Shown here: positions 9,798 through 29,893 of the stretch, in pieces
Layout of the letters: every line of letters begins with the position of its first letter
Numbering within the stretch: position 1 is the stretch's first letter
IMG/VR virus record: IMGVR_UViG_3300030098_003204
Location: 1-35,010 of that record
Length of the DNA: 35,010 nt
DNA from: a virus
Strand: one strand, 5' to 3'
Translations under genes and position numbers: made by a program
The notes under the pieces: model-generated
The model's input: only the letters and a program-made list of their open reading frames with translations
What the model was told of the DNA's origin: nothing
Database searches by the model: none

Positions 9798-10637
9798 ATG
9801 GCATTGACAAAAGTCACGTCGGGCGTGCGCACGCTCGCCACAGGCGAAGTCGAGACGGCGAACATTGCGGACTCGAATGTGACGACCGCGAAGTTGGCCG
9901 ACGACGCGGTGACTGCCGCGAAGCTGGCCGATGACGCGGTTGGGCTGGCGGCTCTCGCGCCACAGACAGATGGCTCGCTGATCAGCTTTGACGCAAGCAC
10001 GAACCCGACACTGATCTCGCCGGGGACATCTGGTCACGTCCTGACATCCGCAGGCGCTGGCGCAGTGCCGTCCTTCCAAGCGCCCTCCAGTGGCATCGAA
10101 CTGTTGCAGTCGGTGACTGCATCGAACAACACGACCATCACGGTCGGTAGTGCCGGTGGCAGCAATCATTTCTCAAACAGCGCCTACAAGAAATTCCTAA
10201 TTCATGCGTACGATGTCGATCTGACAGCCGACAGCTTTTTCAAGATGAATTTTGGCACCGGCACCACGCCAACTATCGATGAGACTAGCTCGTACGGGTG
10301 GGCGATAAACCAGTACAACACGAACGCCGCCTCGGCTTCGTACACTAACGCAGACGGGAACTCGACAGAGATTCGCCTTATGAGCAGCCAGCAGGACGCA
10401 GCGAGTCCCACAGACGCGAGTTTTCACGTCGAGTTGATCAACCCTTCGAATGCAGATCAGTTCACGATGTGCACGGGCTGGGCCATGTTCGGCAGCATCA
10501 ACCTAGATGATTTTCATCGCAGCCTGTTTTTCGGTGTTTATGAGGAAATCACTGCCATCACCGCCGTAAGATTTTCGCTGGAAAGCGGTAGTTTTGAAAC
10601 TGGAGAATTTCGCTTGTACGGGGTAAAGGACTCCTAA
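9798..10637 (+). CDS. Second fibre-like / receptor-binding candidate (279 aa)
   Basis: The product is 279 residues. Residues about 10-55 carry short repeats of the form TAKLADDAVTAAKLADDAV, typical of phage fibre and receptor-binding shafts. A Ser/Gly-rich linker follows, then a beta-rich C-terminal domain from about residue 95. The frame stays open about 210 bases upstream, overlapping the previous gene, but the compositional break and the ATG at 9798 make that the likely start. Position after the S74 fibre suggests a tip or secondary fibre. The C-terminal domain is the likely receptor-contacting part; that is inference. Confidence 0.6.
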   Translation: MALTKVTSGVRTLATGEVETANIADSNVTTAKLADDAVTAAKLADDAVGLAALAPQTDGSLISFDASTNPTLISPGTSGHVLTSAGAGAVPSFQAPSSGIELLQSVTASNNTTITVGSAGGSNHFSNSAYKKFLIHAYDVDLTADSFFKMNFGTGTTPTIDETSSYGWAINQYNTNAASASYTNADGNSTEIRLMSSQQDAASPTDASFHVELINPSNADQFTMCTGWAMFGSINLDDFHRSLFFGVYEEITAITAVRFSLESGSFETGEFRLYGVKDS

Positions 10638-13413: not shown

Positions 13414-13478
13414 TTTTTTTGTTGCAATGGTTAGAAAAACTGACCATATGTAATTACGAAATCAACGGGAGATCGAAA
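13407..13478 (+). promoter_or_regulatory. Integrase upstream region with motifs shared with the early promoter region
   Basis: AAGGTCATTTTTT (13407-13419) recurs at 17008-17020, and TGGTTAGAAAAACT (13428-13441) recurs inverted at 17050-17063 beside the divergent early promoter. Two exact matches of 13 and 14 bases between these two control regions suggest a common regulator for integrase and early genes. A GGGAGA ribosome-binding site at 13468 serves the integrase ATG at 13479. I see no strong -10 box. Confidence 0.45.
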
Positions 13479-14699
13479 ATGAGTGTACGAAAAGATAAAG
13501 AGCGCGGCGGTTACATCGCGGACCTGGGCAAGTTTGGCGGCAAGCGCAACATCCGTGTGGCGACCAAGGCGGAAGCTGATGCGATACACGCCCAGGCCGC
13601 TGAAGAGTTCCGCATCACCGGCAGCTACATTTCGCGCAGCGGCTCGCCGACGTTCGCGCAGGTCGCGGAAGAGTTCCTTGAGCATCAAGCGACGAACCGC
13701 CTGCAGGGTCGTCATGTCGCCGCGGGCGAAATCGCCAACAAGCGCACCAACGTGCGTCATCTGAACAAGTTGCCGTATCGCGGCAGCACGCTGGCCGAAA
13801 CCAAGGTTGCCGACATCCGCCTGGGCGAAGTTCAAAACACGTTGGTGCCCGCGTTGTTCGCCAAGCGCGCCAACAAAACCAACCGCAACATCTTCGCCGT
13901 GTTTGGTCAGGTCATCAAGTTCGCGATGGTCGCGGAGTACTTGTTGCACGATCCGCTGATGGTCAACCAGGGCAACAACAAGACGGGGATCGAACTGCCG
14001 CTGCCTGACGAGGCCGACAAGATCGATGCCATCGGCGAGCGCATCAGCAAATCGATTATCAATCAAATTCTCGACGCTGCCGGGCCAGCGCTCGACGCGC
14101 CTATCGACCTGGGCGATGACGACGAGCAGGTTGCAATGCGCAAATACAAGCGTCGGTTTTTCGCCCGCCTGCTGATCGCGGTGGGACGCGGCACCGGCAT
14201 CCGCGCGGGTGAACAGGCGGCGCTGCGCTGGCCGGAAGTGCACCTTGACCGTGGCGTGATTGACATTAAATTTTCGCGCAAGAAGGATGGCACTATTGGC
14301 AGGCCTAAAACCAAGGCAGGCGTGCGCCAGATTGAACTGGCACCGGATTTGGTCGCAGCCCTGCGTGTCTGGAAGGCGTTGCAGCCAGCCAAGGAAGCGG
14401 CCAATGGTTATGTCTTTGCGAATGAAGATGGCAACATGAATTTAGACAACAGCAACTGGCGCAATCGCGTCTTGCATGCCGCGTGCGACAAGGCTGGTGT
14501 TGAGCGCATCCGCTGGCACGACCTGCGTCACTTCTTCGCGTCGGTGCTGATCTTTGATTTGCAGGAGACCGAGATCGTGATTGCAAGCGTAATGGGCCAT
14601 AAAAACGCAGCCTTCACCCGCGAGCAATATGGGCACTGGCTGGATGACGTGAAGCCGACGACCGGCATGGGCGGGCGTCTGGCAGCGGTGATGTCATGA
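13479..14699 (+). CDS. int: Tyrosine recombinase (phage integrase)
   Basis: The product is 406 residues. I chose the ATG at 13479, preceded by GGGAGA, over an upstream in-frame TTG at 13419. The first 60 residues form a small arm-binding-type domain, residues about 55-200 are the helical core-binding domain, and the rest is catalytic. Catalytic residues can be placed: Arg242 (GTGIRAGEQAAL), a Lys near 277-279, His347 and Arg350 (WHDLRHFF), His374 (VMGHKN) and the Tyr384 nucleophile (REQYGHW). It should integrate the genome at tRNA-fMet using the adjacent attP. Its stop overlaps the next ATG (ATGA), so the small basic protein downstream is co-translated. Confidence 0.96.
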   Translation: MSVRKDKERGGYIADLGKFGGKRNIRVATKAEADAIHAQAAEEFRITGSYISRSGSPTFAQVAEEFLEHQATNRLQGRHVAAGEIANKRTNVRHLNKLPYRGSTLAETKVADIRLGEVQNTLVPALFAKRANKTNRNIFAVFGQVIKFAMVAEYLLHDPLMVNQGNNKTGIELPLPDEADKIDAIGERISKSIINQILDAAGPALDAPIDLGDDDEQVAMRKYKRRFFARLLIAVGRGTGIRAGEQAALRWPEVHLDRGVIDIKFSRKKDGTIGRPKTKAGVRQIELAPDLVAALRVWKALQPAKEAANGYVFANEDGNMNLDNSNWRNRVLHAACDKAGVERIRWHDLRHFFASVLIFDLQETEIVIASVMGHKNAAFTREQYGHWLDDVKPTTGMGGRLAAVMS

Positions 14700-15607: not shown

Positions 15608-15655
15608 AAACTACGGGACTGACTTTTAGTAAGTCAAGTAATTACGCAAAGTAAG
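15608..15655 (-). promoter_or_regulatory. Leftward promoter with palindromic operators
   Basis: On the minus strand TTGACT (15637-15632) and TAGTTT (15613-15608) are 18 bases apart, a plausible promoter for the microprotein-HTH-DUF3310 operon. GACTT-TTAGT-AAGTC (15621-15635) is a perfect palindrome covering the -35 box. ATTACGCAAAGTAAG (15641-15655) has TTAC-N5-GTAA symmetry and matches a site next to cro at 17085-17099. Both are candidate repressor or Cro operators; the second overlaps the end of the repressor gene. Confidence 0.5.
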
Positions 15656-16274
15656 TTCCGACAATCGCATGGATCGCGCTGACCTCGTCTAGGCGATACT
15701 TCACCTCTCGGTCAGGCTGGTGCTGCCGCAGCGTGACGTGCGTGTCGGTGATTTCAACAAACTGCTTCACGATGGCGTGCGCCACGCCGTTTGCTTTAAG
15801 CTGCACGACGACATAGTCGCCGTCGCGATATGGTCGGCCTGGATGCACATATACAATTTCGCGGGGATTGAACCGCGGCTGCATCGACGTGCCGCTGACA
15901 AATACTGCGTATGCGTCAGGGACAGATTTTAGCCATGACGGCGTTTCGATGGCGTCGATTGGTTCTGTAACGTCGGTTATGTCAAAGCCGATCCCAGCCT
16001 GGGCGGCTCCATACAAAGGCATTGTTCTCGTCTCCCTCGCCTGTTGCGGGGGTGGCTCCAACCCCAGGTCAACGCCGATCACGTCTGAGAGAGTGACAGA
16101 CAGCACGTCAGCAATTGATTGTGCTAACTCGGTGCTTGGCTGCGCTTCTTGTGTGCCGTCGTCCCTCACCCGTGTGTAGCGTCGCAATGCGTGCGGATTT
16201 TTCCCGATCCGCCGCGCCAACTCGGCAACGCTAATATCGTGATCCGCGCATAGTTTTTTAATGCGGTTTCTCAC
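15642..16274 (-). CDS. CI/LexA-type repressor, S24 peptidase (210 aa)
   Basis: The product is 210 residues with the classic two-domain plan. Residues 1-65 form a HTH (MRNRIKKLCADHDISVAELARRIG) that should bind operators. Residues about 85-210 form an S24 self-cleavage and dimerisation domain: an Ala93-Gly94 cleavage site in AAQAGIGF, nucleophile Ser130 in VSGTSMQPRF and general base Lys170 in HAIVKQF. Such repressors cut themselves with RecA nucleoprotein after DNA damage, inducing the prophage. The start is a GTG preceded by GGGAGA. It lies downstream of a probable winged-helix protein on the same strand and faces a Cro-like gene. Confidence 0.94.
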   Translation of the reverse strand: MRNRIKKLCADHDISVAELARRIGKNPHALRRYTRVRDDGTQEAQPSTELAQSIADVLSVTLSDVIGVDLGLEPPPQQARETRTMPLYGAAQAGIGFDITDVTEPIDAIETPSWLKSVPDAYAVFVSGTSMQPRFNPREIVYVHPGRPYRDGDYVVVQLKANGVAHAIVKQFVEITDTHVTLRQHQPDREVKYRLDEVSAIHAIVGTYFA

Positions 16275-18538: not shown

Positions 18539-18886
18539 ATGCGCACAAAACTAAACCAACAATCCCGTTTCCAAATTCAAAAGCATTTGGAAACAGTGCT
18601 CGACGTTCAAGACGACGGCGTCAAATACCATGATGGCTGGAGCGACGCGCGCGTTGCAGCCCACTTTGATGTTACCCCTAAAACGGTTTCCAACACGCGC
18701 GCGAACACCTTTGGAAAGCTGTGCGGCAGGGCGCCGCGCTTGAAGGAGCGCCTGGAGAAAATCGAGGCGCGGCTGCGGGTGTTGGAGAACACGCAAAACG
18801 TACATTTGAACCGGTACTTGCACGCCACGTCGTCGCTGTCGCCGGTCGAAGATTGCAATGAAGGAGACGACATACATGCCTCTTAA
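18539..18886 (+). CDS. HTH protein with coiled coil (115 aa)
   Basis: The product is 115 residues. Residues about 36-57 (ARVAAHFDVTPKTVSNTRAN) form a clear helix-turn-helix, and residues about 66-85 (RLKERLEKIEARLRVLEN) a short coiled coil that should give dimers. The ATG at 18539 has GAGGA six bases upstream and is preferred to the GTG at 18527. It lies in the replication module between exonuclease and ssDNA-binding genes and overlaps the latter by 11 bases. It could regulate early genes or act in replication initiation; I recognise no named family. Confidence 0.65.
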   Translation: MRTKLNQQSRFQIQKHLETVLDVQDDGVKYHDGWSDARVAAHFDVTPKTVSNTRANTFGKLCGRAPRLKERLEKIEARLRVLENTQNVHLNRYLHATSSLSPVEDCNEGDDIHAS

Positions 18887-19460
18887 TCTTGAAACTGCCG
18901 CCAGTGGCGATGGTGAATTTTTCAACAAGCTGCGCTTTAACTCGGTCGGTGGTCACTTCTGGATCACGACCGAGGAGGGCGAAAAGCGTTTCCCAAACGG
19001 CTTTAAGGCCGTGTTCGACATGGCGACAGTTGTCACCGGATGGGCACGCTACAACGGCACCTTTCTCGACTTTGAGCCGGACCCGGCGCTCGATAAGCCA
19101 GCGGCGCGACCTGCAGCCGCTGACGACGATGGCGGCGATAAAGCTTGGAAGCGGGCTTTCAAAGTGCGTGCGTTTTCCAAAGACGCCTTCGGCGGCGTCT
19201 GCGATTTCACGCACTCCGCAAACGTCGTCACAAGTGCGTTCTCTGCACTGTACGCAGAGTATGAGCAGCAGGCCGAGAACGGCATGGTGCCGGTCGTGGA
19301 TGTTTCCGGCACGCCGGTAAAGGCTGGCGATTACTACGCGCCGGTCTGGTCAATTGCGAAAATGATTGAGCGACCGACGTCACTACCGGACGCTGCCGCG
19401 GCTCCTGCTCCTGCGGCCCCTGCTGCGGCGCCTGAACCCGCAAGTGATGAAGAGTTCTAG
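18876..19460 (+). CDS. Putative ssDNA-binding protein (194 aa)
   Basis: The product is 194 residues. The N-terminal 150 residues are beta-rich with many exposed aromatic residues (GEFFNKLRFNSVGGHFWITT, FKVRAFSKDAFGG, YYAPVWSIAKM), as in phage single-stranded DNA-binding proteins of the OB-fold kind. An acidic, Ala/Pro-rich tail ends EPASDEEF, typical of SSB tails that bind partner proteins. The neighbours are an exonuclease and a primase-helicase, which supports the role. I chose the ATG at 18876 because AAGGAG lies nine bases upstream; an ATG at 18858 is possible. A terminator follows the stop. Confidence 0.68.
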   Translation: MPLNLETAASGDGEFFNKLRFNSVGGHFWITTEEGEKRFPNGFKAVFDMATVVTGWARYNGTFLDFEPDPALDKPAARPAAADDDGGDKAWKRAFKVRAFSKDAFGGVCDFTHSANVVTSAFSALYAEYEQQAENGMVPVVDVSGTPVKAGDYYAPVWSIAKMIERPTSLPDAAAAPAPAAPAAAPEPASDEEF

Positions 19461-19468
19461 CGACGATA

Positions 19469-19493
19469 GGGGGGCGCGAAAGCCCCCCCTTTT
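19469..19493 (+). terminator. Terminator after the ssDNA-binding gene
   Basis: GGGGGGC (19469-19475) pairs with GCCCCCC (19482-19488) over a GCGAAA loop, followed by TTTTACTT. It lies nine bases after the ssDNA-binding protein stop and upstream of the primase-helicase. It should give more ssDNA-binding protein than primase from the shared transcript. Confidence 0.88.
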
Positions 19494-19524: not shown

Positions 19525-19605
19525 ATGTCTACCAAACAAGTGGCAGCGGTGGTCAACACGACCGAAGCAGAAGTCTGGAACGCGCTTGGGGATAAGGAAA
19601 AGTGA
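19525..19605 (+). CDS. Very small HTH-like ORF coupled to the primase gene
   Basis: From the ATG at 19525 the product is only 26 residues (MSTKQVAAVVNTTEAEVWNA and onward), which looks like half of a HTH. In the same frame the upstream codons read LIRQLYFGSR, which fit a longer HTH of about 35 residues, but no ATG, GTG or TTG is present between the terminator and 19525. The stop overlaps the primase GTG as GTGA, so it could couple translation of the primase. Either a non-standard start is used or it is a short leader peptide. Confidence 0.4.
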   Translation: MSTKQVAAVVNTTEAEVWNALGDKEK

Positions 19606-21578
19606 GCGGCAGATACGCAACCTTTGCGCCAAGGCTGGTGCAGAACAACTGGGACGTTACCCCGGTCAACGGTAAGCGAGCAGTATTATCGGGCTGGGCG
19701 TCGCGACCGGCGACCGCACTCGAATATCATAATTACGCAAACGCCAGCATCGGCGTGCTGACCGGCGGGCAGTACAACATTGTCGCCGTCGATGTCGATG
19801 TGCTGAACCCGTTTGCCTCGAACGAATTGCAGCGGCTTGCGACCGAGTGCCTGGGCACGGCACCGCAGCGCATCGGTAGAGCGCCGAAGTTCCTGATGCT
19901 GTACCGCTGCACCGAAAGCGTCAGGAAAACAAAGACAGGCGTCTATACCATCGACAATGACGACGCTGCAGTCGAGGTGCTGGCAGAGGGGCAGCAGTTC
20001 GTTGCCGCAGGCGTGCATCCAGATACGCAGCGCAAGTACGAATGGCCCGGCGACAGCATCCTTGACCTGACGCCTGACGACCTGACGCTGGTGACCCCAG
20101 AAGCGCTTGACACTTTCCTGGGGTCCGCGGCTGCAGTGCTGTCGCGGTACGGCACGCTCAAGGGCCGCGTGTCGGAGCGCGTGCCTACTATCAACATAAA
20201 AGAGCCAAGCGGCGGCTTGTCACTGACAGACCTGACCGGGGCCAGCGACGAGGTCGAGGCCGCGTTGGCGCACCTGCCCAATGCAGACGAACACTACGAC
20301 GATTGGATCAGCACGTTGCATGCGTTGAAGGGGGCACTGGGCGACGGTGGCCGCGACCTCGCGCATCGTTGGTCGCAGCAGTCGTCTAAATACGACGCCG
20401 CGGAAACTGACCGCGCCTGGGACTCAATCACGCAGGTCAGGCACATCGGTGCCGGGTCGATATTCCACTGGGCATCGCAGCACGGCTTCGACCTCAAGGC
20501 GCTGCGCACACCAATGCATGAGGGGCCGAAAGATGTTGTGCACGACGAAGAGTTTGACCCCCTGGCGGGGATCATGCGGGCCAGCGAGATCCGAGGTCCG
20601 GTGCCTGACCGGCAATGGTTGCTGCAGGATTGGTTCCCGGCACGCGCAGTCTCGTTGCTGTTTGGTCCCGGCGGTGTTGGCAAGACCCTGCTGGTGCAAC
20701 AACTCGCAAACTGTGTCGCGACCGGCGAACGGTTCATGGGGATCGACACGCGGCAGATGCCGGTGCTGGCGGTGCTGTGTGAAGACGACGCACTGGAGAT
20801 CAGCAGGCGGCAGCTATCTATAAACGATTGGCTTGGCGTCAACGAGATTACAGGCACGGGGCCGCAGAACCTGTTTGTTTGGCCCAGGGTGGGCGAGGAC
20901 AATATCCTAGTGACATTCCCCAACCAGGGAGAAGACCAACCAGGGGCGTTCTACGCGCTGCTGAAGGCCGCTGTGGAGCGGGTGAAGGGTGATGCCGACG
21001 ACATATTCATCGTGTTGGACACCGCTGCAGATATGTATGGCGGAAACGAAAACGTCAGGCGCGAGGTCAACACGTTTATCAAAACATATTTGGGTTCGTT
21101 TTGCGTAAATCATAACGCAACGGTGCTGGTGCTGGCGCACCCGTCGCAGGCTGGTTTGTCGTCTGGCAGTGGTTTGAGCGGGAGTACGGCGTGGGAAAAT
21201 TCGGCACGCGCGCGAGCCTATTTTCACCGCTCCGACGACGGCGATGACATCAGAATATTGAGTCGGAAGAAGTCCAATTACAGCAGCAGTGGCGACAGTC
21301 ACGACGTGACGCTGCTCTGGGATAAGGGCGTATATCAACTGCCAACGGCGCCCGATCAAGTGGACAGAATCGAGCAGCGGGCACTCAAAAATAAGGTGCT
21401 GACGGAGATACAGGAGTCGTTTGTGCGGGGTGCCGGATACCGAAAACAGGGGCCGCGCTCATACAAAATGGCGCTGCCAAAAGCCGTCGCTGACGCGCCT
21501 GCCAGGGTCGTGAAATTGGTGAACGAGATGTATGCGGACGGGGTGCTGGGATATGACGATAAAAGGGGCTTTTTTTAG
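19602..21578 (+). CDS. Fused primase-polymerase and RepA-like helicase (658 aa)
   Basis: The product is 658 residues and combines primase and helicase. Residues about 10-180 look like a bifunctional primase-polymerase domain: LTGGQYNIVAVDVDV with Asp64 and Asp66, and VHPDTQRKYEWPG. Residues about 225-295 resemble the primase C-terminal module (HYDDWISTLHALKGAL through GSIFHW). Residues about 335-560 form a RecA/RepA-like ATPase with Walker A GPGGVGKT at 355-362 and Walker B IFIVLDTAAD at 468-477. The C-terminus may be a winged helix. It should prime and unwind phage DNA. It starts with a GTG overlapping the previous frame. Confidence 0.9.
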   Translation: MSGRYATFAPRLVQNNWDVTPVNGKRAVLSGWASRPATALEYHNYANASIGVLTGGQYNIVAVDVDVLNPFASNELQRLATECLGTAPQRIGRAPKFLMLYRCTESVRKTKTGVYTIDNDDAAVEVLAEGQQFVAAGVHPDTQRKYEWPGDSILDLTPDDLTLVTPEALDTFLGSAAAVLSRYGTLKGRVSERVPTINIKEPSGGLSLTDLTGASDEVEAALAHLPNADEHYDDWISTLHALKGALGDGGRDLAHRWSQQSSKYDAAETDRAWDSITQVRHIGAGSIFHWASQHGFDLKALRTPMHEGPKDVVHDEEFDPLAGIMRASEIRGPVPDRQWLLQDWFPARAVSLLFGPGGVGKTLLVQQLANCVATGERFMGIDTRQMPVLAVLCEDDALEISRRQLSINDWLGVNEITGTGPQNLFVWPRVGEDNILVTFPNQGEDQPGAFYALLKAAVERVKGDADDIFIVLDTAADMYGGNENVRREVNTFIKTYLGSFCVNHNATVLVLAHPSQAGLSSGSGLSGSTAWENSARARAYFHRSDDGDDIRILSRKKSNYSSSGDSHDVTLLWDKGVYQLPTAPDQVDRIEQRALKNKVLTEIQESFVRGAGYRKQGPRSYKMALPKAVADAPARVVKLVNEMYADGVLGYDDKRGFF

Positions 21579-21712
21579 CTATGTCATTGAAATCATTGGG
21601 CGCATAGAAATCTTGCGCCAATTTGCGCAGAATATGACGAAAAAAAGGGTTTTTTTGGCGTATAACGTTGAAACAAAAGGGAAAACAAAGATTGCGCACC
21701 GCGATGCGAAAG
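21551..21712 (+). repeat. Imperfect tandem 81-bp duplication after the primase
   Basis: Bases 21551-21631 and 21632-21712 align without gaps, about 60 percent identical and closest in the first 50 bases; each begins ATATGACGA followed by an A-run, a GGG core and a T-run. The first copy includes the primase stop codon. The region is AT-rich compared with its surroundings. Repeats of this type next to a primase-helicase are candidates for a replication origin, but they may instead be a duplicated gene end or terminators. Confidence 0.7.
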
Positions 21713-21720
21713 ATTTCTAA
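21553..21720 (+). CDS. Possible 55-residue protein made of two repeats
   Basis: A frame from the ATG at 21553 overlaps the primase end and encodes 55 residues. Because the duplication is 81 bp, the protein consists of two 27-residue units, MTIKGAFFSYVIE and MTKKRVFLAYNVE being the matching starts. The second unit is very basic. There is no clear ribosome-binding site, so translation is uncertain; the frame may only reflect the DNA repeat. No family is recognised. Confidence 0.3.
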   Translation: MTIKGAFFSYVIEIIGRIEILRQFAQNMTKKRVFLAYNVETKGKTKIAHRDAKDF

Positions 21721-21760
21721 AATAGCAGCAGGATCAATGGGTTGTATGATTCCAAGATTT

Positions 21761-21803
21761 CCCCCCCCTACGGGGGGGGGTTATACCTACCCCCCGCAGG
21801 GGG
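21761..21803. repeat. Tandem G/C homopolymer hairpins upstream of a hypothetical gene
   Basis: Eight C, TAC and nine G (21761-21780) form a very stable hairpin. A second one, six C, GCA and five G, lies at 21790-21803. GGGGG recurs at 21808-21812 and CCCCCC at 21822-21827. Both strands therefore have several G-runs and could form G-quadruplexes or cruciforms. T-runs after the stems are missing, so these are not standard terminators. They lie between the candidate origin repeats and the start at 21819. Confidence 0.75.
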
Positions 21804-21818
21804 ATTTGGGGGTGAGAG

Positions 21819-22382
21819 ATGCCCCCCAAATTTAGGCGCCCCGATCCCATCACTGCGCCAGAGGGCATCGGTGATCCGATAGCCGAGGGGATCGCCAATG
21901 CGCTGCGACCGCTCGACAGGGTCGCGACCGAGATGGACGAGCGATGGGGTGTAGATCGATTGGCGACATTGGTCAGCCCGGACACGGCATCGCGGTTTGG
22001 TTCCGCGAAAGCGAAACTCGATACGGCGATCCGCGACAACGATGCTGCTGCGGTTGCGAAGCGTGCGTCGGTGATGATCAGGGGCTGGCAGGCGATGGAT
22101 GCCGAAGCGACGGCAGCGGGTGCGGTTTGGTCAGATCCGCAGGCCTGGGTCTGGGTTGATGATAGAGACAAGCCGCACGCGTTCGTTCGCGACACTGCCG
22201 AGGCTGCGAGGTACGGCAAGGCGAACCCTGGGGTGACGGTTTGGACGATGGCCGAGGTCGTTCGCGTCGCGGCATCGTTCTCCGAGAAGCAGCGACAGTT
22301 GATCGCGGCGGTCAAGTCAGAGTTCCCCGGTGCCGCGGTGCGAAGTGCGGGTCCGGTGCCTGACGATGATATTCCATTTTGA
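21819..22382 (+). CDS. Conserved hypothetical phage protein (187 aa)
   Basis: The product is 187 residues. It has a Pro-rich start, then a helical part with MDERWGVDRLATLVSPDTASRF and ASVMIRGWQAMDAEATAAG, then DPQAWVWVDD and VTVWTMAEVVRVA. I associate this pattern with a hypothetical family common in alphaproteobacterial phages and prophages; its function is unknown. The C-terminus ends PDDDIPF, an acidic-hydrophobic tail like those of SSB-type proteins, which may bind a partner. GGGGGTGAGAG precedes the ATG. Two small DNA-binding genes follow. Confidence 0.75.
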   Translation: MPPKFRRPDPITAPEGIGDPIAEGIANALRPLDRVATEMDERWGVDRLATLVSPDTASRFGSAKAKLDTAIRDNDAAAVAKRASVMIRGWQAMDAEATAAGAVWSDPQAWVWVDDRDKPHAFVRDTAEAARYGKANPGVTVWTMAEVVRVAASFSEKQRQLIAAVKSEFPGAAVRSAGPVPDDDIPF

Positions 22383-23100: not shown

Positions 23101-23598
23101 ATGGCACTTGCGAAGCGCAAAAAACCAAGAGTGCAGGCGGCGGCATTCAGGGAGATTTGCGAGCGGATATCGAAGGGCGAAGCGCTGCGCCCGATGTGCG
23201 AGACATCCGACAACCTGCCCAGTTGGTCAACGGTGCTGCGGTTTGTTCGTGAAAACGACGAAGCCTACAAGCGCTACCGGGAAGCGCGGCAGCTTCAGGC
23301 TGAAACGATGCGCGATCAGATACTGACGCTGGTCGAAGCCCCGTTGCCAGACAATCCCAAGCTGGCGATGGCAGAGGTGCAGCGGCGTCGGTTGGAATGC
23401 GACTACAAGGACAAGCACATCAGGCAGATGCAGCCGAGCGGTGTGCGTGACCGGGCCGAAGATAACGGCAACCAAGCGGGCGGCGAGATCACGATCAAGT
23501 GGGGCGGCGGATCAGACGCTGCGATGCCTGTCGTATCGCCGCCGAAAGAACCTGTAAAAGAGGCGCCGGTCTTGACCGCAATCGCGCGAGAAATCTAG
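23101..23598 (+). CDS. Terminase small subunit (165 aa)
   Basis: The product is 165 residues. The N-terminal 70 residues (REICERISKGEALRPMCETS then WSTVLRFVRENDEAYKRYREA) have the HTH pattern of Sf6-type small terminase subunits. The helix with MRDQILTLVEAP and MAEVQRRRLECDYKDKH is the oligomerisation part. The C-terminal 50 residues are a Gly/Pro-rich flexible tail that would contact the large subunit. It should recognise the packaging site. It precedes the large terminase but is separated from it by about 640 bases holding an attachment-like repeat, an HNH gene and a small gene. Confidence 0.82.
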   Translation: MALAKRKKPRVQAAAFREICERISKGEALRPMCETSDNLPSWSTVLRFVRENDEAYKRYREARQLQAETMRDQILTLVEAPLPDNPKLAMAEVQRRRLECDYKDKHIRQMQPSGVRDRAEDNGNQAGGEITIKWGGGSDAAMPVVSPPKEPVKEAPVLTAIAREI

Positions 23599-23637: not shown

Positions 23638-23711
23638 TCAGGTTGACAACCTGAAGGTCACGCTAATGATTTCAATAACTTAACCCCAGGTTGGAGCGTC
23701 AGCGGAGCGTT
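23638..23711 (+). repeat. Second attachment-like site upstream of the HNH gene
   Basis: From 23638, TTCAGG, a seven-base loop (TTGACAA) and CCTGAAGGTC copy the anticodon-arm layout of the attP core, where the loop is CTCATAA. GACAACCTGAAGGTCA (23645-23660) is identical to the right attP arm. TTGGAGCG at 23691 and CGGAGCGTT at 23703 repeat the tandem hexamers found in both attP arms. There is no T-arm or acceptor end, so it is not a tRNA copy. TTGACA in the loop could also be a -35 box. The whole gap 23599-23860 holds no other clear gene. Confidence 0.65.
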
Positions 23712-23860
23712 CGACCCGCGGCGCCCTTGATAGGGTCGTTGATTTTCTGGCGACCCCCCCCCACCCCCCAAGCGATTGGGGCGCCCTCTACTACACCTAT
23801 AAGGGGTGCGCAATTGAGGCTCTGCGGCTCTGCCGGTCTGCCAACTTCACGCAGGAAACA

Positions 23861-24079: not shown

Positions 24080-24240
24080 GTTATAGCGCGTTCTGCGTAC
24101 CCGACCCCCTTGGCGGTGTGCGCCTCGCTTTATTCTTCGAAGGTTTCGAGGATACCGACGACGCGCAGATGTTCCTGCGCGTCCTCATGGCTCCCTACGA
24201 GGACCCGCAATATTACGACGAAAGCGACACGGTGCATTGA
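24076..24240 (+). CDS. Small acidic protein between HNH and large terminase (54 aa)
   Basis: The product is 54 residues and acidic, beginning MSYSAFCVPDPLGGVRLALF and containing FEGFEDTDDAQMFLRVLMAP. It overlaps the HNH stop (ATGA) and its own stop overlaps the TTG start of the large terminase. Double coupling indicates real translation. No domain is recognised. It may be a packaging accessory or only a coupling ORF. Confidence 0.6.
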   Translation: MSYSAFCVPDPLGGVRLALFFEGFEDTDDAQMFLRVLMAPYEDPQYYDESDTVH

Positions 24241-25541
24241 GCGGCGTCATTGAGATTGCATATACGCCGCGCCCGCTGCAGCAGGAACTGCACGCGATGC
24301 TCGACCAAAACCGCTTCAACGTCCTAGTCATGCATCGCCGCTTCGGCAAGACCGTCTGCGCCGTCAACCATTTGATCAAGCGCGCCATCGAACTGTCGGC
24401 TGACACAACCAAGCCCAACCCGCGGCTGCACTATTTAAGCCCGACCTATCGGCAATCCAAGGCCGTCGCCTGGGACTACATAAAGTTGTTCACGGCATCG
24501 ATACCCGGCACCAAGTACCATGAAACGGAACTCCGCTGCGACCTGCCGATGGGCGCTCGCATCACGCTACTGGGCGCCGAAAACCCAGCAAGTATTCGAG
24601 GAATTTACAGCGATTTTGTCGTCATGGACGAGGTCGCAAATATGCCGGAATCCATATTCCCGGAGATAATCAGGCCAAGTCTAAGCGACCGCAAGGGCAG
24701 TTGCGCCTTCATCGGCACCCCCCAGGGCCACAATTATTTTCACGATTTATGGCAAGCCGCCGCCGACACCAAGGGCTGGGCGCGGAAGATGTACAAGGCC
24801 AGCGAGACCGGCATCGTAGACGATGACGAACTTGAAGCTGCTCGCGCTACAATGACCGAGGATCAGTACAACCAGGAATTTGAGTGCAGTTGGGTCGCGA
24901 ACGTCCCAGGCAGCGTTTACGGCAAAGAGTTGCAGACCGCCGACGACAAGGAACGCATCACCAGCGTGCCGCACCTACCGCAGCATCGTGTTGATACGTT
25001 CTGGGATTTGGGCATGCACGACTACACCGCGGTCTGGTTTGTGCAGCAGGTCGGTCGCGGCGAGGTCCACGTCATCGACTTCTACCAGAACCAGGGCGAG
25101 GGCTTGCCGCACTACGCAGCCGTGCTCCAGGAAAAGGGATATCTCTACGGCACGCATTACGGGCCTCACGATCTTGAGGTCAGAGAGATGGGCACCGGCA
25201 AGAGCCGCCGCGAGGCAGCTTACGATCTAGGTTTGACGTTCCGCGTCGTGCCCAGGCTTCCAATCGAAGACGGCATACATGCGGCCCGCATGCTGATACC
25301 GCGCTGCTTCTTTGACCGCGACAACTGCCGCGAGGGGCTGGAAGCGCTGCGGCATTACCACCGCAAGTACAACGAGCGGACGCGGCAATTCCGCGACGCC
25401 CCTGTCCACGATTGGTCATCACATGCAGCCGATGCCTTCCGCACTTGCGCCATCGGCCTCGAAACTGAATCGACATGGAACGGCACCCCCCCACAGAGGG
25501 ACGCAATGATGGACTACAACGTATTTGAAGGAGCCGCATAA
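24237..25541 (+). CDS. terL: Terminase large subunit (434 aa)
   Basis: The product is 434 residues and is the packaging motor. Walker A is HRRFGKT at 33-39, Walker B VVMDE at about 128-132, and a coupling motif IGTPQGHN at 159-166. The C-terminal nuclease domain begins with TFWDLGMHDYTAVW (Asp257), and WSSHAADAFRT near the end supplies the last acidic residue. It is shorter than most large terminases but all motifs are present. The start is a TTG overlapping the previous stop, probably translated by coupling. Next comes the small Pro-rich protein and the portal. Confidence 0.95.
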   Translation: MSGVIEIAYTPRPLQQELHAMLDQNRFNVLVMHRRFGKTVCAVNHLIKRAIELSADTTKPNPRLHYLSPTYRQSKAVAWDYIKLFTASIPGTKYHETELRCDLPMGARITLLGAENPASIRGIYSDFVVMDEVANMPESIFPEIIRPSLSDRKGSCAFIGTPQGHNYFHDLWQAAADTKGWARKMYKASETGIVDDDELEAARATMTEDQYNQEFECSWVANVPGSVYGKELQTADDKERITSVPHLPQHRVDTFWDLGMHDYTAVWFVQQVGRGEVHVIDFYQNQGEGLPHYAAVLQEKGYLYGTHYGPHDLEVREMGTGKSRREAAYDLGLTFRVVPRLPIEDGIHAARMLIPRCFFDRDNCREGLEALRHYHRKYNERTRQFRDAPVHDWSSHAADAFRTCAIGLETESTWNGTPPQRDAMMDYNVFEGAA

Positions 25542-25757: not shown

Positions 25758-27395
25758 ATGGCTGACGACCCGAGAACCGCTTCGCTGCTGAAGCGGTACG
25801 CTACGCTTATGCAGCAGCGCCAGAACTGGGAGCAGCATTGGCAAGAGGTCGCTGATTATATCTGCCCCCGCAAGGCGGATATTACCAAGAAGCGCAGCGG
25901 CGGCGATAAGCGTAGTGAGTTGATTTTTGACGGCACCGCCATCCATGCGGCTGAACTGATGGCGGCATCGCTGCACGGCATGCTGACCAATCCCAGCACG
26001 CCCTGGTTTGATTTGCGTTACGCGAACGACGATCTGAACAGCGACGACGAAGCCAAGGAGTGGCTGGAATCCGCGACCGACGTTATGTACCAGCACATGG
26101 CGCGCAGCAATTTCGCGGAGCAAATCCACGAGTTGTACAGCGATCTGGTCGTCTTCGGCACCGGGGTGATCTTTACGGAAAACGATGGCGACGACGGCTT
26201 CCGGTTTTCCACGCGTCACATAGCCGAGTGCTATGTGTCAGAGAATGAAATGGGCCGCGTCGATACCGTGTTTCGGAAGTACAAGACGACAGCGCGCGCA
26301 GCGGTGCGGCAGTTCGGTGAGCAAAACGTCACGCAGCGAATTGCAAAGTTACAAACTGATGACATGTATGCCGAGATCGAACTGCTGCACGTCGTTATGC
26401 CGCGTGACGACCGCGATCCCCGTAAGTCGAATACTAAAAACATGCCCTGGGCTTCGATCTACATCGACCCCGATGAAAAGCAGATCATCGGCGAAAGCGG
26501 CTACGACGAATTGCCGTATTGCATCCCGCGGTTTTTGAAGGCGTCGTTTGAGATGGGCTACGGCAGAAGCCCTTCCATGACCGCGCTGCCCGACACCAAA
26601 ATGATCAACAAAATGTCCGAGGTTGTGATCCGCGCGGCACAGCTTCAGATGCACCCCCCGCTCATGGTGCCCGACGACGGCTTCATGCTGCCGGTGCGCA
26701 CGACCCCAGGCGGGCTGAACTTTTACCGATCAGGCACCCGCGACCGGATCGAACCGCTCAATATCGGCGCGAACAATCCGCTTGGCGAACACATGCTGGA
26801 ACAGCGTCGGCAGGCGATCCGCTCCGCGTTTTATGTCGATCAGTTGACGCTGGGCACTGGTCCGCAGATGACGGCCACGGAGGTCATCCAGCGCACCGAG
26901 GAAAAGATGCGTTTGCTAGGCCCGGTTCTGGGGCGCCTGCAGGCCGAGCTACTGCAGCCATTGATCAACAGGTGCTTCGCCATCTTAGCGCGCCAGAAGG
27001 CCTTTGTACCGGCCCCAGAGGCGCTGCAGGACGGCAACATCGATATCGAGTATGTCAGCCCCCTGGCGAAGGCACAGCGCTCCAGCGAGGTCCAGGGCGT
27101 GATGCAGATGACCGAATTCCTGTTGCCGCTGATGCAGGTCAATACGAGCATCGTCGATCACATCGACTTCGACGGGCTGGCGAAGCACATCATCAAGGTG
27201 ACCGGCACGCCTGCGACGGTTGTGCGCGGCGAGGGCGAGGTCGCCGACATCAGGCAGCAGCGCGCCGAGCAACAGCAGCAGCAGGCTGAACTCGTCCAGG
27301 CAAGTCAGGTTGCCGAAGCCGCTGGTAACGCAGCCCCTGCCCTTCGCGCGGTCGATGAAACGCAGCTTGACCTAGAGGCGTTGGCTGGCGCGTGA
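25758..27395 (+). CDS. Portal (head-tail connector) protein, podovirus type
   Basis: The product is 545 residues, the expected length for a T7-type connector. Familiar features include RQNWEQHWQEVADYICPRKAD near the N-terminus, HAAELMAASLHGMLTNPSTPWFDL, and the C-terminal MTATEVIQRTEEKMRLLGPVLGRLQ helix region, all typical of podovirus portals. The C-terminus (about 500-545) is Gln/Ala-rich. It forms the twelve-fold ring through which DNA enters. It sits between the large terminase and the scaffold gene as in T7-like phages. Its stop overlaps the next start. Confidence 0.95.
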   Translation: MADDPRTASLLKRYATLMQQRQNWEQHWQEVADYICPRKADITKKRSGGDKRSELIFDGTAIHAAELMAASLHGMLTNPSTPWFDLRYANDDLNSDDEAKEWLESATDVMYQHMARSNFAEQIHELYSDLVVFGTGVIFTENDGDDGFRFSTRHIAECYVSENEMGRVDTVFRKYKTTARAAVRQFGEQNVTQRIAKLQTDDMYAEIELLHVVMPRDDRDPRKSNTKNMPWASIYIDPDEKQIIGESGYDELPYCIPRFLKASFEMGYGRSPSMTALPDTKMINKMSEVVIRAAQLQMHPPLMVPDDGFMLPVRTTPGGLNFYRSGTRDRIEPLNIGANNPLGEHMLEQRRQAIRSAFYVDQLTLGTGPQMTATEVIQRTEEKMRLLGPVLGRLQAELLQPLINRCFAILARQKAFVPAPEALQDGNIDIEYVSPLAKAQRSSEVQGVMQMTEFLLPLMQVNTSIVDHIDFDGLAKHIIKVTGTPATVVRGEGEVADIRQQRAEQQQQQAELVQASQVAEAAGNAAPALRAVDETQLDLEALAGA

Positions 27396-28516: not shown

Positions 28517-29374
28517 ATGAGCACTCAAATTACTACGGCGTTTGTTAACCAGTTTAGTGCAAACGTCGCTATGCTTTCGCAGCAAATGGGATCAAAGCTG
28601 CGAAGTGCCGTTGATGTGGAAAGCGTCACCGGCGAGAAGGCCTATTTCGATCAGGTAGGTAGTGTTGCCGCCATAGCGAGAGCTAGCCGGCACCAGGACA
28701 CACCCCTAGTTGAAACCCCCCACAGTCGTCGTCAGGTTAGCCTTACCACTTACGAATGGGCTGATCTGGTTGACGATTCTGACCGGGTTCGCATGTTGGC
28801 CGATCCCACCAGCAGTTATGCTCGCGCAGCCGCGGCGGCGATGGGCAGGGCGCAGGATGACGTTATCATCTCTGCAATGGGCGGCACGGCTAAGACCGGG
28901 AAAGAGGGTGCAACCAGCACCACTTTTGCGGCTGGTCAAAAGATTGCCCACGGGTCAGCAGGTCTTACAATTGCAAAGCTGGTATCGGCAAAGAAATTGC
29001 TCGATGCCAATGATGTCGATCCATCCATTAAGCGTTACATCGTTGTTTCGCCGGAACAGATCGAAGACCTGTTAAACAACACGACCGTAACTTCTTCTGA
29101 TTTTAACACCGTCAAGGCGTTAAGTCAGGGGGACATCTCTTCCTTTGTCGGCTTCGAATTTATCGTATCGAACCGCCTCAAAGACGATGGAACTTCGCGC
29201 CTTTGTTACGCATGGGCGCAGGACGGTCTGAAGATGGCTATTGGCAAAGATGTCATGGCTAAGATCGACGAACGCGCCGACAAATCTTATTCTACGCAGG
29301 TCTATTACTGCGCCACCTTCGGGGCGACCCGAATGGAGGAGAATAAGGTCGTCGAAATCGCGTGCAACGAGTAG
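28517..29374 (+). CDS. Major capsid protein (285 aa)
   Basis: The product is 285 residues, starting MSTQITTAFVNQFSANVAML, with GEKAYFDQVGSVAAIARASR, HQDTPLVETPHSRRQVSL and TYEWADLVDDSDRVRML, a sequence pattern typical of HK97-fold coats of podoviruses in this group. It has the helical spine (ATVAKLVSAKKLLDANDV-like region near 150-175) and ends ARMEENKVVEIAC-type beta strand. It follows the scaffold gene and is preceded by a strong ribosome-binding site. A smaller protein of similar expression level follows. Confidence 0.92.
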   Translation: MSTQITTAFVNQFSANVAMLSQQMGSKLRSAVDVESVTGEKAYFDQVGSVAAIARASRHQDTPLVETPHSRRQVSLTTYEWADLVDDSDRVRMLADPTSSYARAAAAAMGRAQDDVIISAMGGTAKTGKEGATSTTFAAGQKIAHGSAGLTIAKLVSAKKLLDANDVDPSIKRYIVVSPEQIEDLLNNTTVTSSDFNTVKALSQGDISSFVGFEFIVSNRLKDDGTSRLCYAWAQDGLKMAIGKDVMAKIDERADKSYSTQVYYCATFGATRMEENKVVEIACNE

Positions 29375-29386
29375 GAGGGCTGAGCT

Positions 29387-29893
29387 ATGGCTAATGCAAA
29401 CTCCACCTTGGTGACCAACTTTGAGGCCACCCCGCCGACGCCCAACGATGTTGCCAATCTTGGCGGCAAGATGCGCGTTGCGTGTGGCACCATCTCTCTC
29501 CCGGTCGATGACCTGTCTGCGACTGACACGGTCATGCTCGCTGGTATCCCGACGAACGCCGCCGTTGTTAGCATCAAGCTTTTCAATGATGACCTCGACA
29601 GCACGACGGGAAACATCACGACCGATGTTGGTCTGTACACCAGCGACGGCAACGTCACTGCGAAGGACGATGATTGCTATGCGTCTGCGATCACCGATCT
29701 GCGTGCGCCGGTTACCGCCGGCACTGAAGTCGCTTTCGAGGCCCGCGACATCAACAAGATGGGTCAAAAGGTCTGGCAAGACGCCGGCGACTCTAGCGAC
29801 CCAGGCGGCACCTACAATGTCGGCCTCAAATTTGACGCAGCCGGCAACACGGCTGGCGATTTATCGTGGCTGATCACCTACATCGTTGACTGA
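29387..29893 (+). CDS. Head-associated protein, decoration candidate (168 aa)
   Basis: The product is 168 residues, beta-rich, with many Thr, Asp and Gly residues. A long segment VSIKLFNDDLDSTTGNITTD then VGLYTSDGNVTAKDDDC looks like a jelly-roll or beta-sandwich. It lies directly after the major capsid protein (12-base gap) and before a strong terminator, so it is co-expressed at high level with the capsid. A decoration or minor head protein is likely; I recognise no named family. Confidence 0.6.
   Translation: MANANSTLVTNFEATPPTPNDVANLGGKMRVACGTISLPVDDLSATDTVMLAGIPTNAAVVSIKLFNDDLDSTTGNITTDVGLYTSDGNVTAKDDDCYASAITDLRAPVTAGTEVAFEARDINKMGQKVWQDAGDSSDPGGTYNVGLKFDAAGNTAGDLSWLITYIVD

Follow-up and report, generated by a model that had tools for sequence, protein, structure and literature searches.

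Where does replication begin in the phage represented by IMG/VR record IMGVR_UViG_3300030098_003204, and could the noncoding gap behind its primase-helicase gene be the place? The stretch analyzed, referred to as the window, is a virus contig of 35,010 bases from a temperate, podovirus-like phage, in which two genes frame the gap:

19602..21578, plus strand: primase-helicase gene, 658 amino acids (aa), with Prim-Pol, PriCT_2 and AAA_25 (RepA-type) helicase domains (Pfam) and a C-terminal domain modeled as compatible with a winged helix
21819..22382, plus strand: ORF187, of a family without Pfam or PHROG match, with the C-terminus DDDIPF

An original prediction, made from the letters of this DNA, placed an origin of replication and helicase loading site here and cited a repeat pair and two hairpins. 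Comparison with relatives supports the origin, whereas the cited repeat pair is not what defines it. We estimate with a probability of roughly 0.8 that positions 21579-21818, together with a repeat reaching into the 3' end of the primase gene, are the replication origin of this phage. This reading is based on the layout of the gap, its conservation, the linked inheritance of its repeats with the C-terminal part of the primase-helicase, and a palindrome core which stays constant while the repeats change. Helicase loading at the gap can reasonably be inferred as well, and it is from such sequence comparisons that we infer origin activity and every biochemical step discussed below.

The same plan recurs across IMG/VR, where the stop codon of a primase-helicase gene is followed by a noncoding stretch of mostly 100-300 nucleotides (nt) with repeats and palindromes and then by a homologue of ORF187. 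Searches of this database with the primase and with ORF187 (for the latter, 80 of 100 relatives were kept) yielded 125 loci with an ORF187 match, of which the 112 with an upstream primase stop at a distance of 20-700 nt were retained; the 13 left out comprise one on the minus strand, six without a primase match and six with a longer gap. An ORF187 homologue stands behind the gap in 112 of 112 loci. Since overlapping loci of one contig were included, these were reduced to 50 regions judged distinct by shared 9-mers. The intergenic regions have little common sequence and share a common order, namely repeats (often in direct and inverted copies) and then a palindrome before ORF187. Direct and inverted repeats exceeded those of shuffled sequences in 40 of the 50 gaps, as opposed to 6 of 65 other noncoding gaps from the same loci and 5 of 50 primase-coding segments. 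The corresponding counts for folding above shuffles (reached by at most 1/100) are 38/50, 17/65 and 3/50, and those for either property are 42/50, 20/65 and 7/50. A strict short-loop search for the nearest hairpin, which is a weak test superseded by folding, identified 25 of the 50 regions at a threshold of at most 1/60 shuffles. Hairpin loops closed by C-G with TA at the loop edge (TATA, TAAA, TAAC, TACG) occur in 20 of the 50 regions (shuffle mean 1.7, maximum 8).

Which part of the protein travels with the repeats was assessed on 31 loci; among the 50, 40 were at least 560 aa long, from which 8 without the anchor and L003, whose ORF187 is incomplete, were removed. After allowing for the Prim-Pol half and ORF187, repeat-word similarity tracks the helicase/C-terminal part (partial r 0.35, 0/1000 permutations), and for the last 90 residues the partial r is 0.43 (0/1000 permutations). 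Given the C-terminal part, the repeats are tracked neither by the Prim-Pol half (partial r 0.03, 342/1000 permutations) nor by ORF187 (partial r -0.01, 583/1000 permutations). In 28 of 465 pairs the Prim-Pol halves are alike (>0.6), yet the C-terminal parts are unrelated (<0.15). In one pair, L092/L096, the DNA matches at 90% identity across the Prim-Pol half, cannot be aligned over the helicase, C-terminus and gap, and is again 96% identical from 10 nt ahead of the ORF187 match, a pattern to be read as a cassette swapped naturally inside a single gene. L141/L163 (the L048/L067 pair) presents the same picture, its right-hand border falling 33 nt into the ORF187 match. Across the 50 loci, gap DNA is similar (mean 0.47) only where the helicase and the last 110 residues are both similar (46 pairs); where the helicase is similar but the C-terminus dissimilar, mean gap similarity is 0.06 (36 pairs). 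That helicase/C-terminus and noncoding gap appear to be exchanged together, as a single unit, is the notable finding of this analysis.

The last 360 residues of the primase-helicases cluster into groups of 23 (class I, which includes the window), 17, 9 and 1. Gaps of classes II and III contain dense iterons, e.g., CGGACA, ACCTACA and CTGATCC. The class-I motif is sparser: AAGTYATTGAAA, with at most one mismatch, occurs 16 times in 5,341 nt of gap DNA vs 6 times in 207,471 nt elsewhere; it is found in 11 of 23 class-I loci, and the other classes have it in 1 of their 27 gaps. TA-edged hairpins closed by C-G are present in 14 of the 23 class-I regions. Every one of the six motif copies outside the gaps lies downstream of the ORF187 start, at a distance of 1.85-2.8 kb; in the window, such a copy is seen at 23668-23679 (minus strand), between the small and large terminase genes. 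The copies in the terminase gap are possibly a second site.

ORF187 homologues are also encoded in five records of cultured Roseobacter phages, of which CRP-831, CRP-821, CRP-823 and CRP-811 were compared and CRP-822 was left out. Their layout is similar and their repeats are of two types, TTTATAC in CRP-831 and CRP-821 and TTTGTAG in CRP-823 and CRP-811, with the palindrome core AAACCCTTTAGGGTTT identical in both. Of the 35 fixed protein differences between the repeat types, 33 fall within the final 150 columns of the 750-column alignment, as opposed to 3 of 97 other variable columns (Fisher 2.9e-25, with sites treated as independent). The main text of the Roseobacter phage paper (PMC12629253) contains the words "primase," "stem-loop" and "repeat" 0 times.

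Within the window itself, the gap and the adjoining coding ends comprise the following elements:

21551..21592, plus strand: first copy of a 42-nt repeat, in which the 3' end of the primase gene is followed by the clade motif
21579..21599, plus strand: candidate binding site for the initiator, formed by the clade motif CTATGTCATTGAAATCATTGG of the TAAGTCATTGAAA type
21605..21719: inverted repeat, with its two arms at 21605-21618 and 21706-21719
21613-21629: small inner palindrome TTGCGC...GCGCA within the inverted repeat
21632..21673, plus strand: second, diverged copy of the 42-nt repeat, with a degenerate clade motif at 21659-21680
21761..21780, plus strand: C8-TAC(G)-G9 hairpin, corresponding in the window to the C-TANN-G palindrome
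21790..21803, plus strand: C6-GCA-G5 hairpin, whose own C-run can alternatively pair with the G-run of the first hairpin
21804..21831, plus strand: ATTTGGGGG / CCCCCAAAT stem around the ORF187 start codon

Instead of the two imperfect 81-bp repeats originally drawn, there is one 42-nt pair with an 81-nt period (32/42 identical, 76%), because the 50 matches between the full 81-nt units divide into 32/42 in the first part and 18/39 in the remainder. Nor does the repeat start at the primase stop, as had been claimed, given that it begins 25 nt ahead of the stop codon (21576-21578) and inside the gene. When its region was shuffled 500 times with dinucleotides preserved, its score was reached 0 times; it ranks second among the 349 200-nt tiles of the window. 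The top tile lies near 9.8 kb, where short repeats within a tail-region gene (9877-9922) outscore the 42-nt repeat. AT-richness was borne out, with 60.5% AT at 21551-21712, a value reached by 0 of 431 tiles of the same length (window 42.9%). The inverted repeat, with 14-nt arms of 93% complementarity, had been overlooked. Both predicted G/C-tract hairpins are present, and no other C5+...G5+ hairpin with a 3-8-nt loop occurs in the window. Folded as DNA, the gap as a whole is exceptional (z -4.06, 0/100 shuffles).

The nearest distinct relative, L048, has a primase 69-70% identical to that of the window, and its gap helps to separate the conserved from the incidental. Both hairpins are retained there, loops included, and the repeated stretch is present in a single copy, with an alignment gap opposite the second copy of the window. 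Because of this single copy and alignment gap, the repeat pair is probably a lineage-specific, recent duplication of the primase 3' end and the motif following it, whose second copy need not be essential. The pair is absent in L048 and therefore does not define the element, and the repeat as first drawn is in part incidental. Joint absence of repeat and hairpins in relatives had been named as evidence that would speak against an origin; L048 lacks the repeat and has the hairpins, and in most other relatives such a joint absence is not seen. The conserved part, as read from the alignments, is the layout, with the clade motif (TAAGTCATTGAAA), the inverted repeat and the C-run/G-run hairpin ahead of the next gene.

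Several observations weigh against an origin at this site. The gap of L048 is exceptional neither by its repeats nor by its fold, and 8 of the 50 regions, all in the helicase class of the window, fail the repeat and fold tests alike. In the gap of the window, direct 7-mer repeats alone are not exceptional (reached by 37/200 shuffles; inverted words by 5/200). The GC-skew shift predicted near 21.6 kb did not appear: there is no turn at the gap, with cumulative G-C of +119 over the preceding 2 kb and +150 over the following 2 kb, and the detrended cumulative skew has its maximum at 23,526. Linked inheritance could partly be explained by physical linkage of adjoining DNA; counter to this, ORF187, the other neighbor, does not track the repeats. 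The protein differences among the Roseobacter phages may stem from one recombination event, and their count is therefore not independent evidence per site. Finally, five of the six motif copies outside the gaps lie within or close to the gap that precedes a large-terminase-like or a long downstream gene, and terminator-like sites are found in 10 of the 50 regions on the plus strand (shuffles 1.65) and in 25 on the minus strand.

These sites, along with the C-run/G-run hairpins and the stem around the ORF187 start codon, are what would be expected if the gap were a transcription terminator, attenuator or leader for ORF187 and the late genes, with hairpins working in RNA. An intrinsic terminator was rejected, as the gap of the window has no terminator-like site on the plus strand, though some relatives have one. 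The RNA fold of the hairpin stretch is not exceptional either (z -1.21, 22/200 shuffles), Rfam yields no match in the window, and neither dispersed repeats in 40 of the 50 regions nor their link to the helicase/C-terminal part would be expected of a terminator, so that this explanation is highly unlikely. Alternatively, the repeats might be an operator through which the primase-helicase or another phage protein regulates downstream transcription, with replication starting elsewhere. Such an operator would produce the identical linked inheritance and could account for the motif copies preceding the large terminase gene; it would need neither the strong fold signal nor the constant palindrome core, and known replicons with this gene order are described as using this place as ori (PMC6092414; PMC4234260). 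Its chances are accordingly slight.

The small terminase gene starts 1.3 kb downstream, and a packaging site (cos or pac) might be sought nearby. However, the repeat type tracks the helicase/C-terminal part and the Roseobacter phages have the same plan beside genes other than terminase, which leaves a packaging site the least credible explanation, with next to no likelihood. A further question concerns only the 42-nt pair, which could be a neutral tandem duplication without any contribution, only the rest of the gap being of importance. The missing second copy in L048 and the inclusion of primase coding sequence in the copy favor neutrality, whereas five relatives (L146, L070, L071, L003 and L069) have two or three copies of the motif contained in the pair; neutrality seems to us a serious option, if somewhat short of even odds.

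The proteins on both sides of the gap bear on how an origin might be used. For the primase-helicase, RepA and DnaB are among the best structural matches of the model, the best in the PDB being RSF1010 RepA (1g8y_A, E 2.6e-8; the pTM of the model is only 0.42). Its C-terminal 60 residues are modeled at a pLDDT of about 90 as helices and a beta hairpin. Homologues of ORF187 end in PF in 43 of 48 complete sequences, mostly with DDEIPF-like tips (38 of 48 by a stricter pattern); this tip occurs in 0 of 4 Roseobacter phage homologues. DDDIPF is described as the tip of the single-stranded DNA-binding protein (SSB; PMC5872125). The ORF187 model consists of a helical bundle and an alpha/beta part. ORF187 as a plain SSB is not supported: the model shows no oligonucleotide-binding (OB) fold and has no confident PDB match. 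It is a guess that the SSB-like tip links ORF187 to host partners of SSB.

If the gap is the origin, the C-terminal, probably winged-helix, domain would bind the class-specific repeats, represented in the window by the TAAGTCATTGAAA-type motif and the copy that partners it. With the bound protein and AT-rich, palindromic DNA in place, the RepA-type helicase might assemble and open the duplex. The C/G-run hairpin, either extruded or single-stranded, could subsequently serve the Prim-Pol/PriCT_2 half for the first primer, comparable to the RSF1010 primase at single-strand initiation (ssi) hairpins, and the host polymerase would take over, possibly aided by ORF187 through its tip. A more far-reaching and speculative proposal, which we would sooner doubt than adopt, is a swappable origin code in two parts, in which class-specific iterons would be read by the C-terminal domain and a palindrome with a common C-TANN-G core by the constant Prim-Pol/PriCT_2 half; helicase, C-terminus and origin would move as one cassette in an otherwise unchanged gene pair, and ORF187 would hook host replication proteins by its SSB-mimicking tail.

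The wider gene neighborhood is that of a complete phage:

13419-14699: integrase
15642-16274, minus strand: S24-type repressor
23101-23598: Sf6-type small terminase
24237-25541: large terminase
25758-27395: head-tail connector
28517-29374: major head protein

A gene for a DUF6362 protein is listed between ORF187 and the small terminase. Rfam and tRNA scans of the window returned 0 matches. Two further hairpins look like ordinary terminators, namely G6-C7 just upstream of the primase gene (19469-19489) and G6-CTTCGG-C6 (29900-29917) after a gene ending at 29893. A C9-A-C6 run within the terminase gap (23754-23769) is a possibly frameshift-prone homopolymer. The neighbor at 18858-19460 does not match the Roseobacter "ssDNA-binding protein" (E 0.24), and homology between the two was rejected. 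Among known phages, 240 records match the primase of the window partially, none with more than 80% primase coverage, and MW202711 (L178) has no ORF187 homologue directly behind its repA gene. A description of this gap in these phages was not found in the literature searched, which did not include subscription papers.

To our knowledge, the origins of most environmental phages have not been mapped. The layout described here would make them findable from sequence, between a Prim-Pol/RepA-type primase-helicase and its neighbor. Moreover, the natural swaps (L092/L096, L048/L067 and CRP-831/CRP-823) suggest which protein part reads which DNA, and the origin specificity of prim-pol replicons, a question open for pRN1, therefore becomes testable in cultured marine phages.

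Among known systems, the phage-inducible chromosomal islands (PICIs) and Staphylococcus aureus pathogenicity islands (SaPIs), e.g., EcCICFT073, are described as having an ori directly 3' of pri-rep that drives plasmid replication and contains an AT-rich stretch along with iteron sets specific to the element (PMC6092414). Here, too, noncoding DNA with repeats directly follows the primase/initiator gene on its 3' side. In PICIs, two iteron sets flank the AT-rich region. The gap of the window contains a good and a degenerate copy of the motif, and the 162 nt richest in AT lie here. In contrast to PICI satellites, which lack capsid genes of their own, the window carries terminase, connector and major head protein genes and is not filed as a PICI; the RepA-type helicase and the shared-core palindrome ahead of the next gene are further differences. 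If the origin reading is true, the PICI-like ori position would extend to complete temperate phages.

Replication of pRN1 is reported to need a stem-loop behind the prim-pol-helicase gene, and BIP-1-type Bordetella phages (PriCT_2, SF3) have been proposed to be pRN1-like (PMC4234260). As in pRN1, noncoding structure just downstream of a prim-pol-helicase-winged-helix gene is kept here while the sequence changes; unlike in pRN1, which has a superfamily 3 (SF3) helicase, a single stem-loop of ~100 nt, no iterons and an archaeal host, the helicase is RepA-type (AAA_25) and iterons are present. The RSF1010 oriV is described as combining iterons, the RepA helicase and primer hairpins used by three proteins, RepA, RepB' and RepC (PMC4234260). 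These phages share the RepA-type helicase and the combination of iterons and hairpins with a special primase; in contrast to the separate RepC and RepB' of RSF1010, Prim-Pol, PriCT_2 and helicase are on one chain, and the origin would lie directly behind the gene.

PrimQH primases comprise a primase, PriCT, a variable ATPase (including the RepA type) and a C-terminal winged helix suggested to recognize origins (PMC5862659), a set of domains that the primase-helicase of the window shares, with its winged helix a probable one; that paper concerns protein architecture, and its main text uses "iteron" and "stem-loop" 0 times. Phage P4 alpha is described as uniting primase, helicase and winged helix in one chain which binds origin repeats (PMC4234260). 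The present phages likewise have a single-chain protein and a possible second site elsewhere, a likeness at the level of description, and the P4 primase, unlike their Prim-Pol, is of the Toprim type. In P4, the second site besides ori is crr. By analogy, the gap most resembles the PICI/SaPI and pRN1 origins and would represent a known kind of origin in a new variant.

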